Assembly: GCA_004151065.3 (NCBI GenBank)
Contig: NWUY0300001337.1
Coordinates: forward strand, 41,747 to 63,334
Length of the DNA stretch: 21,588 nucleotides
Source: Larix sibirica
Taxonomy: Eukaryota > Streptophyta > Pinopsida > Pinales > Pinaceae
Direction: 5' to 3'
Each line of letters starts with the position of its first letter. The stretch's first letter is position 1. A model generated the notes under the pieces. It was not told the origin of the DNA. It saw nothing but the letters and a program-made list of their open reading frames with translations, and did no database searches. The translations under genes were made by a program, and so were the position numbers. Shown here piece after piece: positions 13,908-21,588 of this stretch.

Positions 13908-14117
13908 TAATTATCCAGGGAAAAAATAATAATGGTAATAATAACTCGACAATGCACTCTGCAATGTCTTTCTAACCAAAACTTTATAAATAGAAGAAAA
14001 ATAATTTTGAGATGCATCCAGCGTGTGCCTTTAGCTTTTAACTTTGCTAGTAATTGAGGAGAAAGGCATCAAATTTATATTCAAGAAATTGAGAGAACGA
14101 TTTATGATGAAATATTT

Positions 14118-14119
14118 AC
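14118..14119 (-). other. Splice donor of IDH exon 1
   Basis: On the minus strand the exon ends CTCAAG followed by GTAAATATT. The homology stops exactly here: the next codons (VNISS, stop) do not match the conserved continuation of the family. Confidence 0.85.
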
Positions 14120-14668
14120 CTTGAGGCTTTCGACCACACCAGGGACGACCTCGTGCTCCAGACCAGCGTATTCTCCCTCTGTATTCTCCCTGATGACGAC
14201 AATATCGACATTGTCGTGACGGGTGGGGAGGCCGGGCAAATTAAAGCAATGAACGAGGGACGCAAACAGGTCCAACTCCTTCCTCAACTGCACGTTCAAA
14301 GAACTGACCCCACCTCCCACGGGAGTGGCCAGACCCCCCTTCAGGCACACCTTATTCTTCTTGATGGAATCGATCACCTCGGCGGGCACCCTCTGCATAT
14401 TCCCGCTGACTTCATATGTCTCGAAATACACTGGCGCGTGCATAGCCTCCATCACCTGCTGCACGGCACCTGTGACGAGGGGCCCTATGCCGTCCCCTGG
14501 AATAAGGGTCACTGCCCTCGGGGTACCGTCCCCCGGCCGCGGCATGTAAGTTATGCTCCTCCTCGACCAGGAGGGTTCTGATCCCTTTCTCAGCACTTGC
14601 GCCCATACTGACCGATTTCTCCCCATTTCTTTCATAATCCATCTACCACCCCTACTCGCCATTGCCAC
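14120..14668 (-). CDS. IDH1: NAD-dependent isocitrate dehydrogenase regulatory subunit, exon 1
   Basis: The exon encodes 183 residues and ends at a good splice donor (AAG|GTAAAT; GT at 14118-14119), phase 0. The product is a regulatory subunit of the mitochondrial NAD-isocitrate dehydrogenase, which with the catalytic subunit oxidises isocitrate to 2-oxoglutarate in the citric acid cycle. Residues 1 to about 40 are Arg-rich and nearly free of acidic residues (MAMASRGGRW... SRRSITYMP), a mitochondrial targeting presequence. Then come VTLIPGDGIGPLVT (nucleotide/substrate fold start), KNKVCLKGGLATPVGGGVSS, LNVQLRKELDLFASLV, FNLPGLPTRHDNVDIVVIRE and NTEGEYAGLEHEVVPGVVES. GGGVSSLNV and CFNLPGLPTRH are typical of regulatory rather than catalytic plant subunits. 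The first ATG (14668) was chosen as the most upstream in-frame start. The remaining roughly 190 residues of the family are not found in the window. No defects are visible. Confidence 0.93.
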
Positions 14669-14870
14669 GCTCTCCGCGTTGATTTGAATTTGACTGGATT
14701 CGATTGCGGTTCAAGGGTTTCTTGCGTATATTTGCAGGGGTTAATGGCGGAATGAGTTAATTACGAACGGTTTTTCATGTGAAGATTATAGTTAGATGGG
14801 CCTTTGCCATGAAGAACTTTAAGGCAAGCTGTGGAACCGCGCTCTGGTGCACTCAAATTTGGCGCGGTAT
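14669..14870 (-). promoter_or_regulatory. Probable IDH promoter and 5' UTR
   Basis: Upstream of the IDH start, on the minus strand, a TATA-like tataatc lies at about 14783-14789. A site II-type element (TGGGCC, 14797-14802; AGGCCCA when read on the minus strand) lies about 130 bp from the ATG. Site II elements are recurrent in promoters of plant genes for mitochondrial and ribosomal proteins. TTTGGCGC (14858-14865) matches the E2F consensus TTTSSCGC. Sequence between 14669 and about 14780 is the likely 5' UTR. All are motif matches without experimental support. Confidence 0.4.
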
Positions 14871-15040
14871 GCTCTCCATCCACAAATAAAAACGAAGGCT
14901 TTAGTTTTTAGTTTTGGCTTACAGAGGGAAGTACATTGTGGGAATACAAATGATCGATTTTCGTCTTAATTTTTTTATTTTATTTTAATTAATTAGTACT
15001 CGCATGATGATTTGATGTCACTTGAATAGGGCTTGGGGAG

Positions 15041-15214
15041 ACTTTTAATATAAAAGTTTCATCGATGTAATTTTGAAATGAGATATTATAAAGTTTTGTG
15101 AATAAACATTTGGTAATGGTGTAAACTTTTAACATAAAAGTTTCATAGTTACATCAATGTAATTTTAAAATGAGATATTATGAAGTTTTGTGAATAAACA
15201 TTTAGTGATGGTGT
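15041..15214. repeat. Tandem duplication, about 84-bp period
   Basis: acttttaatataaaagtttcat at 15041 recurs as acttttaacataaaagtttcat at 15125. Both copies continue through gatgtaatttt, aatgagatatta, aagttttgtgaataaacatt and atggtgt. Copy 2 carries about 6 extra bases (agttac). No coding sequence. Confidence 0.9.
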
Positions 15215-15296
15215 TTATATTTTGTGGGGTTGGGGAAGAGGGGAGCTATGGAAGAAGATTCCGTGGACTTTTGCCTGGAAACATAGAACCACATGA

Positions 15297-15416
15297 CTTT
15301 TCTAGAGAGAATTTTATTTTTATTTTGTAAAAAGGGCTTTTAAGGAGGGTGAAGTGAAATCTCTATAGAAAATTGTATTTTATTTTGTAGAAATAGTTTT
15401 TAAGGAGGGTGAAGCT
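15297..15416. repeat. 60-bp tandem duplication
   Basis: Blocks agagaattttatttttattttgtaaaaa and taaggagggtgaag (15341) recur exactly 60 bp later as agaaaattgtattttattttgtagaaa and taaggagggtgaag (15401). No coding sequence. Confidence 0.85.
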
Positions 15417-15513
15417 CGAAGAAGGGAATAGAATCTAGTTAAGGGAAATGGACTAATGCAGGGTTTGAGTAAATCCAAAATACTTAAAATTTGGTTTTTC
15501 CAAATTAGATAGT

Positions 15514-15599
15514 CATGTTGAATTGCCTATGTTTTACTAAGGAGAATAATAGATAGCATGTTGAATTACCTATGTCTTACTAAGGAGGATAGTAACAAA
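15514..15599. repeat. 43-bp tandem duplication
   Basis: catgttgaattgcctatgtt (15514) and catgttgaattacctatgtc (15557) each continue with ttactaaggag-a-atag. Third short tandem duplication within 600 bp. Confidence 0.85.
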
Positions 15600-15842
15600 T
15601 ATAAGCTCACTTAAAAGTTTCTCCGAAATATAATTTTGCTAAGAGAACATAGATACCTCGTAGTATTATTATAGAACTTAGTTATCAAGATCCATCTTAA
15701 ATCCAAATCTATTAAGCACTAAGAGGGACCTATGTTGGTTTTAATTTTTGTAGTATTGTGTAAAATTTAAGATTAAGCCAACGTATGTTAACGAATAGCA
15801 TTATTTTGTTTTGTTGTCACGTGTGTTACGTTAAGTTACATG

Positions 15843-15861
15843 ACAACATCTCCCCCATACT
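15843..15861 (-). repeat. Polypurine tract / LTR start, minus strand
   Basis: The minus strand reads agtatgggggagatgttgt, identical but for one base to 5700-5718. The LTR would extend leftward (below 15845) and the internal region rightward, but no polyprotein is recognisable in 15862-16400, so the element is truncated or very old. Confidence 0.5.
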
Positions 15862-16429
15862 GGGTTGTAGAGCACCTCGCTACTCCCAGTGCAATAATGA
15901 GATGGTAAGCCCTGCAGTCTCAAACCTGAACCAAAATGATGTGTTGCCATGTATATCCCAATAAATCATTAACAACAATGGGATTATGGGCGATGTGTTT
16001 TCTCCATGTAAAACTCCCTTGCCAAGTTATTATCAATTAGACTTGAAATTTATTAAAACCAAGCGAGGTCCTACTAGACAAAAGAATGTGTGGTTCTTAT
16101 GGCAAATCCCTACTCGACATCTCTACTCAATATAATTCCATAAAATGAGGTTTGCAAGATTTGACAGAAAAGGATTTTGTAGGAAGTGACTTGAAGGAAA
16201 CCCTAGAGAATAAGAGGCAATATGATGTGAGACATAAACCCAAGAGAAAGTATACAAGTTGTCTTAAATTGCTAAAGGAAAAGATGAAATTGGTTATTGT
16301 TCAAGACGTAGTGGTTAATTGGAGAGGGATTTACCTAGAGACAATCGTAATAGGAAGGTTTCATGGTAGAAAAAAATTAGACAAAACCCTCTATGACTAG
16401 GTAAAAAAAGGTTTGGAAAAACGAAATCG
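15862..16429. other. Spacer upstream of LINE ORF1 relic
   Basis: No gene recognised. A Lys-rich frame at 16152-16400 matches nothing known and is not called. The last 30 or so bases may be the LINE leader. Confidence 0.4.
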
Positions 16430-16690
16430 ATGGAGTTGCTTTCCTCTTCCTCGCAAACCCTGAGCCTGCAGGTCGTCGCCAGTTTGCCCCCTGCGCTTGA
16501 GATCCAAGTGAATCCATGTAACAAAGAGCCCACTTTAGCTACTAACTGAGTCCGGACGGATTTCAAAGAGAAGGCTTCGCTTCTCTTTGCCAGGGGTGAA
16601 TCTCAGGTCGTCGTTCCAAGGGTCTCGATCCCATTAGGCCAGTCAACGGTGGGTTACCAAAACCAAGCAGCATTGGGGGAGCATAAGGGT

Positions 16691-16918
16691 TTTCTATTTT
16701 TCGTGATGCTCCTTTCAGGCTCTCCCAGATGCTTTCTCATGAGCCCATCGGATCCTGTCGATCACTTGCTACGAAAAATCCAAAGCTTGACCGAGATCCC
16801 GGGTTGCTGCCTGCACCTTTTCTTTCATGGCTGGTTTCTTCAGATGGGGGCTCGGTTAGGAGATTATGGTATATCCAAAGACGAAACCATCTCTTTTGTA
16901 TATGGCTTGAGAGGTGGA
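16691..16918 (+). other. Ubiquitin-like domain within LINE ORF1
   Basis: Seventy-six codons align to ubiquitin without a gap, from FLFFVMLLSG (ubiquitin residues 1-10) to VYGLRGG (70-76). By my count 28 of the 73 positions from residue 4 to 76 are identical. Matches include Phe4, Val5, Leu8, Gly10, Lys29, Ile30, Gln31, Ile36, Pro37, Leu43, Phe45, Gly47, Leu50, Gly53, Leu56, Asp58, Tyr59, Ile61, Lys63, Thr66 and the terminal LRGG. Lys48 is Trp and Ile44 is Phe. The order, spacing and LxDYxI signature make chance unlikely. It lies inside the ORF1 frame with no stop between it and residue 41. Confidence 0.82.
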
Positions 16919-17611
16919 AATGAGGGTGCCCCGAGGTCATCTTCTTCGCAGTAGCGTTCATTCAGAGATGCTATGAAATCTAAAAATCTTGGGGCTTTGA
17001 AACCAAAGCCTTTGTCAGGTTCAACCTTCATTATCAAACACTCGGAAGAAAAACCCACCGAAAAGCTGGAAGACTCCCACGCACTTATCAATGGGTATAA
17101 CCTCAGTCGAACGAGCCTCATTTGCAGATTCAACAGGCTTTGGCCCTCTGCTTTTGGTTTAAGGGAGTAGATTAATCAAGCATGGGTTGTGGAGCACAAG
17201 TTGTTTCTATGCTCCAAGGGGTTCTTCATTGCTCGTTTCTCGTCGAAGGAGGATTGTGACCAAGTCATCGAGAAAGGGCCGTGGTTTTAGGGAAGTTCGG
17301 GGATTTCTATGCATCGATGGTTCCCTGAGTTTGATCTGTTGTCAGTCCCAGCAATGGTTACACAGGTCTGGGTAAGACTTCCAAACCTTGCCTTGCATCT
17401 TTGGTCTCTCGATTCATTTGCTACCATTGGCAACTCTTTGGGAAGGTCTATCAAGAGTGATATAGATAGAATCTCAAAATGCCTAGCCACTTTTTGTGGG
17501 ATTTTTGTTGAGTTGGATCTGACCAAAGGGCTTCCAAATAAGATCTCTATCGAATGGGGCGATTCAAAACCCCACCTGCAGCTCATCGATTATGAACAAA
17601 CAAATTTTATA

Positions 17612-17653
17612 TGCAGATCTTGTCAACAACCGGGACACCTTTAGGGTGTTTGT
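17612..17653 (+). other. CCHC zinc knuckle of LINE ORF1
   Basis: CRSCQQPGHL-stop-GVC follows the CX2CX4HX4C pattern exactly, with the four ligands intact and a TAG codon in the last spacer. Zinc knuckles of this type bind nucleic acid and are standard at the end of DUF4283 in plant LINE ORF1 proteins. Confidence 0.85.
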
Positions 17654-18284
17654 TCTATAACCCCGGTCCCTTCGATGAAAAGATGTCCTAAAGGGTGGGA
17701 GGAGGGCAAGAATTAGAAGAAGAACTCAGTGTCTCAACCGAGAGGAGATGTTCCTACTAATCCTACCACTATTGAGCGTGACTAATCTCATCCTTTGTCT
17801 AAGTCTCATCGGCCCCTAATGTCAGTTCCACCTCCAGGGGCCCCTGAAAAGGCCCTTGTTTACGAAGAAGGGAACGATATGGTAATAGTTACGGCTCCAT
17901 TCTTGGGTGGCTAGAAATGCTCTCATGAGACAGATAGTTCAGATAGTGACAAGGAAGCATACCTGGTCCATAGGATGATTGATTCTAAAGGATCGTCACT
18001 CCAATTGGTCGTAGCTGCAAATTTCATGCTTGCGATAACTCAACACGGTAGATTGATGTCTGGAAGAAGAGAAAGGATTCACGTCAGTCTTCTCAGTAAC
18101 CAGATATCTTGCTCACAGGGTGTGTACGGTGATGGTTTGTTATATCTTTTGCTAAGGTTGGATAGCTTGTTTTTTGTTGGCCCGGTTTGTGGTGGGTTCA
18201 ACTTTGTATCAATATGTAATTATTTCTTTGATTAATAGAAGGTTCCTCAACTTACTCACAAAGACAACTACATAGTATTAATAA

Positions 18285-18545
18285 TAACTATGTAATATAT
18301 AAAATATTAAATATATATAATATATTAATATTCTAACTATATATAAACTACATTATATTAATATATTAACATTATTATTACATATTATATAGTATATCTT
18401 ATAATATTAATATTAAAATTTGTTAATATATTATGTATATTAACTATATAATATATTAATATATAGAATAATCATATAGAATATATTAATATTCTAACTA
18501 TATTAATAAAATAGTATATTCATATATTACCATTAATATTTACAA
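18285..18545. repeat. AT-only low-complexity island
   Basis: About 260 bp of almost pure A/T with many overlapping palindromes (ttaatattaa, aatatattaatatt). Longer words such as aatatattaatattctaact recur at about 18320 and 18482. It lies just past the end of the LINE relic. No coding sequence. Confidence 0.85.
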
Positions 18546-20250
18546 GAAAAACAGTCTAATTAAAAAATTTGAAAAAAAAAAGAGCTATGTTTACAGACTA
18601 GCTTCCTTCCTTCGCAGATCAATCGTTAATATGTCCAGCTTAGTGAGAACCCATCCCCATACTTACTACACCAGCAGGCTATTGGTTTTCAATTGAGAGC
18701 CTTCGAACATTGAAATAAATGTTCCTCCCCTGTGAGTTATCGAGAAACACCATACGAGATACATTGTTTAATACATCACTATCGACGTACAAGGAAAAAT
18801 ACGAGATGCAACTGCCACAAGGAAAATTCACAAGGAGATCATTTGCAGGTGGAAGACCATTAGTTATGGTTGATTAGTTTAATGAATGATCAAATAAATA
18901 TTCAAGTTTGCAAAGTAATTGTTAAAATTTCAATCTCTGTGAGCATCTGGACGGTTAATGGTCAGATTGCATTACATGTTTTTGAAGGTCCGATTGCAAG
19001 TGGCAAACTCTTTAATATGGTTGATAGACCTAATGATGATTATCAAGAAGAATTCCAAAATTTCTATAGCTACATAAATTAAACATGAAGTCTAGAATGG
19101 ACTTTTAAAAATACAGGTCGTGATCAAACTGAACATTTGAAAAAATGATACTCTGTTTAAAAATTATATAGTGACTATGGTATTGTGTCTCTTGATACCT
19201 TTCATTTCCAGATCCAGATCCAATAAAGTATAGATTTGCATCATTTTTAGATATTGGAAAGTCTAGACTTAGATCGCACTAAAAATGAAATTTAGTCCTT
19301 GGTTTTTCCTGAGAGTGGATTTTAAAAATGATTTGGAAGCAGATAGAAATGAAGATTATGGCTAATTCTGCCATTGATACACCAACATTCTAAGTCCTTG
19401 ATATAAATCCAGGTGCTCTTAATTAATTCTGTCTATGAAGGATGATCTTATCTTTTTTTATGGATATTACAAGATTGAACTGCTCTAACGAGTCCTGAGC
19501 TTCAACTCATTATTTGTGCTATGCTAGTATGTACATTATAATGACATCAGAAATTGATTTCGATGGAGTAGTCGTATTGAAGAAAGTTTGGTCCTTATGC
19601 ATTGTAAATTTAGTAGCCCAAGCATGTTTTAGGGAATTAAATGCTGTAGAATCTGCCCATCATATATATTGAAAAGCAGTCTCCAGATGCCTCAAATATT
19701 GATAGTTAAAGCTATTATAGGAGAGCAAAGCTACCCTTTTGCAATTCCGTGGAGGGATTTCCCTTACCCTCGTCCAAGGGAAATTGAGTGATGAGCACGA
19801 TTTACTTATTTATTGATTATTCCAAAGGCCTTAGGGGCTGGAAATCTCATTCTGGTGTGAAGGTAAAAATCTCAAAATTCATAGAGGATGAGGATGGAGG
19901 AGAGAGCAGTGGCAGTGGTAACGACTTTGGTGATTCTAACCTGGAGGACTATTCACAGTTGTGAGTTGAGATTCTTCCATTTATGGTTTTTGGTATCTAC
20001 CTTATTTTGCACTGTCCATTACCATTCCCACCTATAATATTTCTCAGCATCACTATCTAACATCTATATAGTAATGTGGAAGACATGAAGGTGTGAATGG
20101 TTGGTGAAGTGAAGAGGTGAAACTGTGGAAGTGGTTCTCCATTCCTCAAGGATGCTCATGCCCCACCTGCAATGTTTCATTCTTCAATGTTTACAAATAT
20201 CATAAAACAATAAAGGGACTTAATATGACATCAATTTGAATGCTCGCTCA
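18546..20250. other. Unassigned sequence
   Basis: No gene is supported. A 70-codon frame at 18870-19082 (MISLMNDQINIQV..., ending NFYSYIN) has ordinary amino-acid composition but no family resemblance I recognise. A second open stretch near 19830-19965 contains an acidic Ser/Gly-rich segment (EDEDGGESSGSGNDFGDSNL). Either could be a relic exon. No splice structure is convincing. Confidence 0.35.
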
Positions 20251-20596
20251 AGCAACTTTGTGGAATATGCGCGCACTGTAATAGAAATAGATTACCATTG
20301 CTCATTGATCGCAAGTTTTAGGGATATGAAAATCAACTATTCATAGGAGTGGTGGAATACATTTGTTTATTATGTGTGCACCACAGTCAATTATCAATAG
20401 TCATTGGATACGAAATCCCTATAGAGGAGTGTCCTCTGCACCAATTCCTTTAGAGGGACTTTTTACAAGATCCATTTGCAGCCTCTTATGGATAATCTAG
20501 AAGCTCAAACTTATGAAACATGTGAGAAGGACATTATGAAGTATTTTCTGTATAAGAAAGCGGTTCATGAAGTTNTGTGATCTATTTGTGTGAGCA
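20251..20596 (+). pseudogene. PRMT5: PRMT5 (protein arginine methyltransferase 5) pseudogene fragment
   Basis: Clear but broken similarity to the plant type II arginine methyltransferase PRMT5. Blocks in order: SNFVEYARTV (20251 on, weak), NYS-stop-EWWNTF (20338-20361; the family has Trp at the stop), LLCVHHSQLSIV after a frameshift, then after a gap of roughly 100 family residues RDFLQDP, and in another frame [34 protein letters not shown] (20476-20577). The [14 protein letters not shown] block is the most conserved. The AdoMet-binding and catalytic core that should follow is absent. Stops, at least two frameshifts, an internal deletion and loss of the enzyme core make it non-functional. Whether it is a processed copy or a gene remnant cannot be told. 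Confidence 0.8.
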
Positions 20597-21253
20597 GTTT
20601 CTTAAGGTGTTTGATCTTCTAGAAATACCCTATGTTAGTCGAACATGGTATCAGCGTGCTTATAAAGTCTCACTTCCATTATTGATCAAGAGCTTGAACC
20701 GGTGTAGCCATGTGCATGAAAGGATTTCTACATTATGTTATTTATGTGTATTTATGGGATGATAGAGGTGTTTCATTGCGTCCGGAGCGTTGCTTTCTAT
20801 TGGAAATGCTTTTTGTTTCTCTCAAAAAGGTTTCTCTTTGCCCAAGATATGACCATTTTACTGGATTCATAGGTATATTGTTTACATTTACGGATTTATA
20901 AACAAAAAAAAAATATCATGTTCTTTCATATTCTAGGCTGGTTTTTTGTTTTATTCCCAGTTTGTTACCTATTCCAACTATGTATGCTCTTTGTTGTGCG
21001 CTATGTGCGAACTCGACAAATAAGAAATAGAACGAAAGAGTTTTCTTCACTGCATATGCTCTTTGTCATGCACCTTGTGCAAACTCAGTCAACCAAGGAT
21101 TAACCCAAAATTTGAGAAATTTTTGTTTCAAAAATTCATTTTATGTTTTTGTGTGGTTGTGTAAAGTGTCTTGCGGGCCAAAATGTAAATTTTTTCTAGT
21201 AGACACGCTCTCCCAACAACAACCCCTATTCTCCTCCATAATATTACTATTTG
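20597..21253. other. Spacer; short 72-bp-spaced duplication
   Basis: No gene recognised. tatgctctttgttgtgcgct (20983) and tatgctctttgtcatgcacc (21055) start two related blocks of about 35 bp, 72 bp apart, each followed by a tgtgc(g/a)aactc segment. Confidence 0.5.
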
Positions 21254-21257
21254 TTTT

Positions 21258-21475
21258 GCTTAACTCACTTGGTTGAAAGTTACTTTAATAAGTAAGAGGT
21301 CTTGGGTTCAAGTACCTATTTTGTTATACAAAAGTTCATGTAACTTTAATTTATAAAGTAACTCTTTGTAAAAGTGTTTCCCACTTGTTTTATAAAAGCG
21401 GGTCACTAATTTTAAAGCAACTCATTTGTAAAAGTGAGCTTGTAGGCAAAGTTAGTAGGGGGGGGAATTATTTAC
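21258..21475 (+). mobile_element. tRNA-derived SINE-like sequence
   Basis: taactcacttggttgaaag (21261-21279) fits a pol III A box, and gggttcaagtacc (21304-21316) fits a B box. The 43-bp spacing is that of a tRNA gene. There is no CCA-end acceptor pairing, so it is a SINE head rather than a tRNA gene. The following 150 bp contain three related copies of a gtaact..ttgtaaaagtg motif. The right end is not defined, and no target duplication was identified. Confidence 0.5.
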
Positions 21476-21588
21476 TTCTTTTTTTGCTCCCATCACCACA
21501 GATCAACTTGTGTCTGCCACATGGCTCCCTGGTTACTTTTATGCCTTTCTTCAAAAGGGCATAACTTTGGCATGCGAAGTCCATTTTT
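21476..21588. other. Window end, nothing recognised
   Basis: Short tail with no supported feature. Confidence 0.5.

Follow-up and report, generated by a model that had tools for sequence, protein, structure and literature searches.

An internal ubiquitin-like domain with a conserved diglycine tail in the ORF1 protein of a plant L1-type LINE family

Plant L1 elements are LINEs whose ORF1 protein can carry a DUF4283 domain, as in Celine of poplar (PMC11288735), and in the division of ORF1 proteins into five types they are assigned to type I, which combines an RRM with a CCHC zinc knuckle (PMC4120745). The kinds of domain given there for LINE ORF1 are the RRM, the CCHC knuckle, a coiled coil with a C-terminal domain, the PHD, an esterase and a zinc finger/leucine zipper; ubiquitin does not figure in the descriptions of the types, and the word is absent from the main text of that paper (PMC4120745), as it is from the main text of the Celine paper (PMC11288735). 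Among the papers listed by searches of the open PMC library, likewise, none reports ubiquitin in a LINE ORF1 in its title or abstract opening. In sugar pine, zf-CCHC (150), DUF4283 (81) and ubiquitin (43) rank with the most abundant domains of unannotated transcripts, and no connection among the three is drawn in the sections of that paper considered here (PMC5144951 Table 2).

Here we describe a window of 21,588 nucleotides from Larix sibirica (contig NWUY0300001337.1), in which one member of a plant L1-type LINE family is present as a decayed copy limited to ORF1 (Table 1). An earlier, sequence-only reading of the window had claimed a gap-free 76-residue match to ubiquitin ending in LRGG, and this was confirmed: the translated segment has 28 identities to ubiquitin over 76 residues without a gap (the earlier count was 28 of 73), ends in LRGG with Asn as the next residue, and scores 34.9 bits against PF00240 (curated cut-off 25.4, E 1.3e-8). 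Single ubiquitin chains in the PDB match it at E ~2e-8, and chains of ubiquitin fusion precursors are also among the PDB matches to the domain. When all six frames of the window are compared with ubiquitin without gaps, the runner-up reaches 16 identities, and the best match in each of five control shuffles of dinucleotide blocks has 15. The segment itself is free of stops and lies in a stop-to-stop ORF at 16550-16954, whereas eight stops interrupt the ORF1 frame as a whole, the first at codon 40 and the last at codon 495 of the read-through. The DUF4283 domain was correctly placed in the same frame, since PF14111 matches the read-through translation (X at stops) at E 3.4e-19 and the stop-free piece 17303-17464 at E 1.2e-10 (41.6 bits, above the cut-off of 27.2); the stop-to-stop piece 17198-17287 stays below this cut-off (E 4.7e-4, 20.3 bits). 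The CCHC knuckle reported in this frame, 3' of DUF4283, stands by its motif, with a stop at one spacer position, but not by its Pfam score, the zinc-knuckle matches being weak and below the cut-offs. By eye, the C-terminal motifs match those of the relatives P0002-P0006. No Pfam match to an endonuclease or reverse transcriptase of ORF2 was found at E 0.01 in the + frames of 14001-16430 and 17900-21588, which is why we call the copy ORF1-only and not an autonomous LINE, and a repeat search of 16150-18400 gave no convincing flanking target site duplication, the ends of this old copy being uncertain. Elsewhere in the window, PF00180 matches 14105-14710 on the - strand (E 5.9e-21), where an isocitrate dehydrogenase-type gene is represented by its first part; PF05185 matches ~20467-20578 on the + strand (E 9.8e-9, X at stops), where part of a PRMT5 arginine methyltransferase is likely to be an exon or a pseudogene piece; and 1-396 on the + strand resembles, by eye and with no Pfam match, the C-terminal end of a Ty1-copia polyprotein.

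Table 1. ORF1 features in the window and host-like sequences in the leaders of relatives.
Feature	Position	Strand	Evidence and remarks
N-terminal leader of ORF1	16430..16690	+	87 codons, one internal stop; start codon assumed (translation)
Ubiquitin-like domain, 76 residues, LRGG end	16691..16918	+	PF00240, AF2 model, PDB fold matches, 28/76 identities
Arg-Gly-Gly codons (domain residues 74-76), proposed deubiquitinase site after Gly76	16910..16918	+	Tail conservation
Linker from ubiquitin-like domain to DUF4283 region	16919..17116	+	SFRDA motif near start, one internal stop (translation)
DUF4283 domain	17159..17464	+	Two internal stops; PF14111 on read-through
CCHC zinc knuckle, CX2CX4HX4C	17612..17653	+	One internal stop; motif
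ORF1 C-terminal region, SDSDKE, K-rich end motif	17654..18099	+	Three internal stops; K-rich motif in another frame
Presumed element 3' end	18100..18245	+	By eye; end position a guess
P0003 leader			At5g48480-like glyoxalase; before it, eL32 start-like sequence by eye
P0009 leader			GST
P0019 leader			NAD-dependent epimerase
P0041 leader			DEAD helicase
P0069 leader			F-box; 24.6 bits against cut-off of 24.3
P0048 leader	P0048 residues 2-66		uS19; E ~1e-29

The beta-grasp fold anticipated for the ubiquitin-like segment agrees with an AF2 model and with fold matches in the PDB, and the domain is thus predicted to adopt this fold. In the model of the relative P0005, the ubiquitin fold forms a block with pLDDT 93-97 whose last residue is 111. 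From LRGG onward, residues 112-158 (pLDDT < 50) are predicted to be a disordered linker before DUF4283, which is modelled with confidence from ~170 and, examined for an RRM-like fold, shows the order strand-helix-strand-strand-helix-strand in 183-250. The best 50 matches of the fold search were all to ubiquitin.

Relatives were gathered by a read-through search (31), an alignment search (best 120 of 212) and a ubiquitin-less-relative search (best 120 of 126), and the matches listed gave, with P0001, a combined set of 191 proteins. An HMM covering ubiquitin residues 1-70, built from 17 relatives in the ubiquitin-bearing group, detected the domain in 86 of the 191 proteins (83 at E < 1e-4 and three above). 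As the HMM stops at residue 70, the tail was not selected for; even so, 83 of the 86 hits end in GG, the other three reading KLRRG, HLRRG and RLGGS. Identity to ubiquitin ranged from 23 to 36 of 76 in the 23 sequences compared. Open frames that run from the ubiquitin-like domain through DUF4283 to the CCHC knuckle occur in many relatives, so that the architecture is not a one-off and intact copies with the predicted domain order do exist. P0041 is the sole protein with two separate HMM hits; by eye the hit looks split, and the protein probably has a single ubiquitin-like domain interrupted by an insertion rather than two in tandem.

Named sources are few among these relatives: loci prefixed PITA (which we take to be Pinus taeda), Taxus chinensis, Cryptomeria japonica and some angiosperms. 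None of the named conifer proteins among the matches listed has a ubiquitin domain by HMM; the Pinus and Taxus models within the ubiquitin clade described below start late or have other upstream sequence, and two Cryptomeria models lie outside it. In viral and prokaryote genome contigs, 44 and 48 pattern matches respectively were found, none of which was a relative by tblastn. Of 123 relatives, 63 were tabulated by contig: 41 lie on contigs < 3.6 kb with the ORF1 end motif and 174-882 nt (median 353) outside the ORF, 10 on contigs < 3.6 kb without the exact motif, and 12 on contigs >= 4.4 kb. The short contigs, which also carry ubiquitin-less relatives (e.g. P0125, 435 aa on 1559 nt), hint at ORF1-only mRNAs without ORF2, that is, at a half-LINE like mammalian HAL1, with contig breaks as the alternative.

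A FastTree phylogeny of 175 DUF4283-CCHC cores was labelled with the presence of the domain (HMM E < 1e-4), of the tail ([LMI]RGG upstream of the core) or of neither, a leaf being called ubiquitin-less if at least 85 residues precede the core without a ubiquitin domain. Three proteins (P0102, P0111 and P0032) were exempted from the tail rule and two (P0139 and P0148) were relabelled by hand, because the RGG of these five comes after the S[YF]..[AV] motif and not before it. The smallest clade with all 88 ubiquitin-bearing leaves (76 domains, 12 tails) has 120 leaves and a support of 0.867; a node within it has 0.138. Its remaining leaves comprise 29 undecidable and three ubiquitin-less ones, namely P0179 (a partial Taxus model), P0093 and P0165 (PITA prefix), all from annotated genomes, and outside it lie 28 ubiquitin-less and 27 undecidable leaves. 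Intact relatives without the ubiquitin-like segment, which the sequence-only reading had held to count against its claim, thus exist, but 28 of 31 such leaves fall outside this clade; as the clade holds every ubiquitin leaf by construction, it is the three inside that are informative. In ubiquitin-bearing proteins the distance from GG to the core is 60-95 residues (median 66), and the 85-residue limit taken by itself is therefore not safe for every leaf. However, 18 of the 31 ubiquitin-less leaves have the S[YF]..[AV] motif with at least 39 residues before it, compared with at most 27 between GG and motif, and a tail there would have shown up; the other 13 calls rest on length alone and are less certain. 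The distribution fits a single gain of the domain followed by retention, and the moderate support, the hand-set labels and the 13 length-only calls leave room for a more complex history. The window copy groups with its nearest relatives in 11 leaves (support 1.0), and the next node (0.899) adds two Taxus sequences. Judged by this position in the tree, the ubiquitin-bearing ORF1 family probably consists of conifer jumping genes, and the best explanation for its architecture would be the acquisition, by the ORF1 protein, of a ubiquitin-like domain that lies internally, behind a variable N-terminal leader and ahead of the RNA-binding part made up of linker, DUF4283 and CCHC.

Conservation was assessed in 28 clusters made from the 65 of 70 full domains that align to the profile without a gap, the five with a one-residue deletion being left out. 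Although the median identity among cluster representatives is 34%, the tail is kept: the best-kept positions are, in order, 75, 76, 47, 74, 72, 35, 10, 43 and 73, so that positions 72-76 (RLRGG), with ranks 5, 9, 4, 1 and 2 of 76, take five of the top nine places. These five positions are not needed for the ubiquitin fold. Leu8, Arg42, Lys48, Lys63 and Val70 are not kept across the 28 clusters: position 8 is L, P, I or T, position 42 is Y, N or R, position 70 is mostly N, S, T or M, and Lys48 and Lys63 are found in 55% and 40% of the weight, respectively. After the GG (n=83) stand A (30), S (29), C (9), M (5), T (4), V (3), N (2) and Y (1), so that 71 of these 83 residues belong to the group A, S, T, V and M, and the position beyond is varied. 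Met is residue 1 of the domain in only 1 of the 70 full domains and at least 13 residues lie upstream in all 70, which indicates that the domain is internal.

What precedes the domain is hypervariable in the relatives. In the proteins from the read-through and alignment searches, at least 100 residues stand before the domain in 53 of 124. In 14 of the 44 pairs that are at least 80% identical from the ubiquitin-like domain to the C-terminus, the leaders show no similarity at E 1e-3, and in 11 an alignment covers 70% of the shorter one; among the 51 pairs with 70-80% identity, 44 lack leader similarity. In 75 pairs with a core identity of at least 85%, mean identities were 0.36 for the leader (65 pairs), 0.66 for the ubiquitin-like domain, 0.81 for the linker, 0.93 for the core and 0.78 for the C-terminus, and leader identity in distant pairs is ~0.24. 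The faster divergence of the ubiquitin body than of the adjacent linker in these close pairs is unusual for a ubiquitin fold. It counts against a strong constraint on the surface and would suit either a loose demand, for fold and tail, or a conflict with host factors. N-terminal portions of host proteins stand in frame before the ubiquitin-like domain in six of the 53 leaders (Table 1), and in P0009 the GST piece abuts, by eye, the apparent own start of the element. Since assembly chimeras or exon-trapped transcripts are possible and only in-frame joins are visible, we treat these host pieces as a lead and not as proof of capture.

An exposed and conserved tail between two folded domains, mostly small residues after it and a disposable leader before it together look like a fusion that is processed by deubiquitinases. 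As in a processed ubiquitin fusion precursor, the diglycine is followed by a residue other than Pro, both in the window (LRGG-N) and in all 83 relatives with the GG end. We therefore propose, as the reading we hold to be rather probable on these sequence comparisons, that cleavage by host deubiquitinases takes place behind Gly76, either co- or post-translationally, and would free an ORF1 protein bearing a small N-terminal residue while the leader-ubiquitin part is discarded. ORF1p would thereby be insensitive to whatever precedes it, in-frame pieces of host genes included. Among the three functions that the sequence-only reading had offered for the domain, a leader cleaved by deubiquitinases appears the best supported; a stability tag or a solubility module is disfavoured because neither explains why a floppy RLRGG tail should be the best-kept part. 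A further step, which we put forward tentatively, is that the domain serves the element as a release device: any in-frame host start codon and coding piece might precede it, host deubiquitinases would always free the same ORF1p, and swaps of leader, possibly also of promoter, would spare the element's RNA-binding protein. Expression from captured host 5' ends could follow, with leader-ubiquitin as a by-product that may itself disturb the ubiquitin pathway. Several observations count against cleavage. Many deubiquitinases use the Ile44 patch and Arg42, and the degraded state of both here could weaken recognition; a ubiquitin body less conserved than the linker in close pairs is unexpected under tight constraint; the Asn after GG in the window is among the rare residues at this position; and the leaders could be held open for a reason other than release by deubiquitinases.

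We considered whether the domain might instead stay attached to ORF1p as a permanent ubiquitin-like module, either as a solubility or assembly unit or as a docking site for the proteasome or for ubiquitin-binding proteins. Integral domains of this kind are common in cellular proteins, and the retained hydrophobic core and predicted fold would suit one here; yet they have usually lost the diglycine, whereas RLRGG is among the best-kept parts of this family while the binding patch (Leu8, Val70) drifts, and we regard this reading as unlikely. The tail conservation could also be taken to mean that the released leader-ubiquitin is activated by the E1 of the host and becomes coupled to proteins of host or element, as a retrotransposon modifier or a pathway poison: Arg72, Arg74 and GG, the part read by both E1 and deubiquitinases, are kept, and the rapid divergence of the body would be in keeping with a conflict with host factors. 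On the other side, Arg42 and the Ile44 patch are not kept, there is no sign of activation and the leader would remain on the N-terminus of the modifier, which makes this reading improbable.

That the domain is a passive, functionless leftover of the past capture of a host ubiquitin gene is improbable too. The broken window copy, the pieces of host proteins in leaders and the rapid change of the ubiquitin body agree with it, but it does not sit well with a domain that is present in 86 of 191 proteins, gap-free in 65 of 70 and furnished with a near-invariant tail at 34% median identity. Hardly credible is the view that the segment matches by chance, or that a LINE and an adjacent host ubiquitin gene were merged artefactually, a view for which only the decayed state of the window copy speaks: profile and fold matches and the 28 identities against a next-best 16 oppose it, the PF00240 score and the identity controls rule out chance, and relatives that share the domain order rule out a neighbouring host gene.

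In the ubiquitin-eL40 and ubiquitin-eS31 precursors, ubiquitin is joined through LRGG to an unrelated protein and cut off by deubiquitinases; it is nearly invariant in such precursors and starts the protein with Met1. The order of ubiquitin, LRGG and an unrelated protein is the same in the family described here, but the domain is internal, is not begun by an N-terminal Met1 and, in the sequences compared, is identical to ubiquitin at 23 to 36 of 76 positions, which illustrates the extent to which a ubiquitin sequence can diverge with its tail intact. With type I ORF1 the family shares an RNA-binding domain followed by a gag-like CCHC knuckle (PMC4120745), while the ubiquitin-like domain and the long variable leader in front of DUF4283 set it apart from plant L1 ORF1 proteins such as that of Celine (PMC11288735). 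A LINE that bears such a domain may account for the joint appearance of DUF4283 and ubiquitin among the unannotated sugar pine transcripts, where the abundance of zf-CCHC, DUF4283 and ubiquitin perhaps represents this family (PMC5144951). The 5' HDV-like ribozymes of R2 and L1Tc likewise free an element product from a host co-transcript, but act on RNA and not on protein (PMC4035085, PMC3774820). If the proposed site is used, the family would provide a case in which a mobile element brings its own cutting site to fusions with pieces of host genes. The 2A-like peptides of other non-LTR retrotransposons also separate translation products by an element-encoded sequence, through ribosome skipping at NPGP (PMC4981915); a 2A peptide is ruled out here, as NPGP is absent from all 191 proteins, and the ubiquitin-like domain, which would require host proteases, might do a comparable job with a borrowed protease site. 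Should this hold true, it would represent a new route of retrotransposon protein processing and a natural parallel to 2A.
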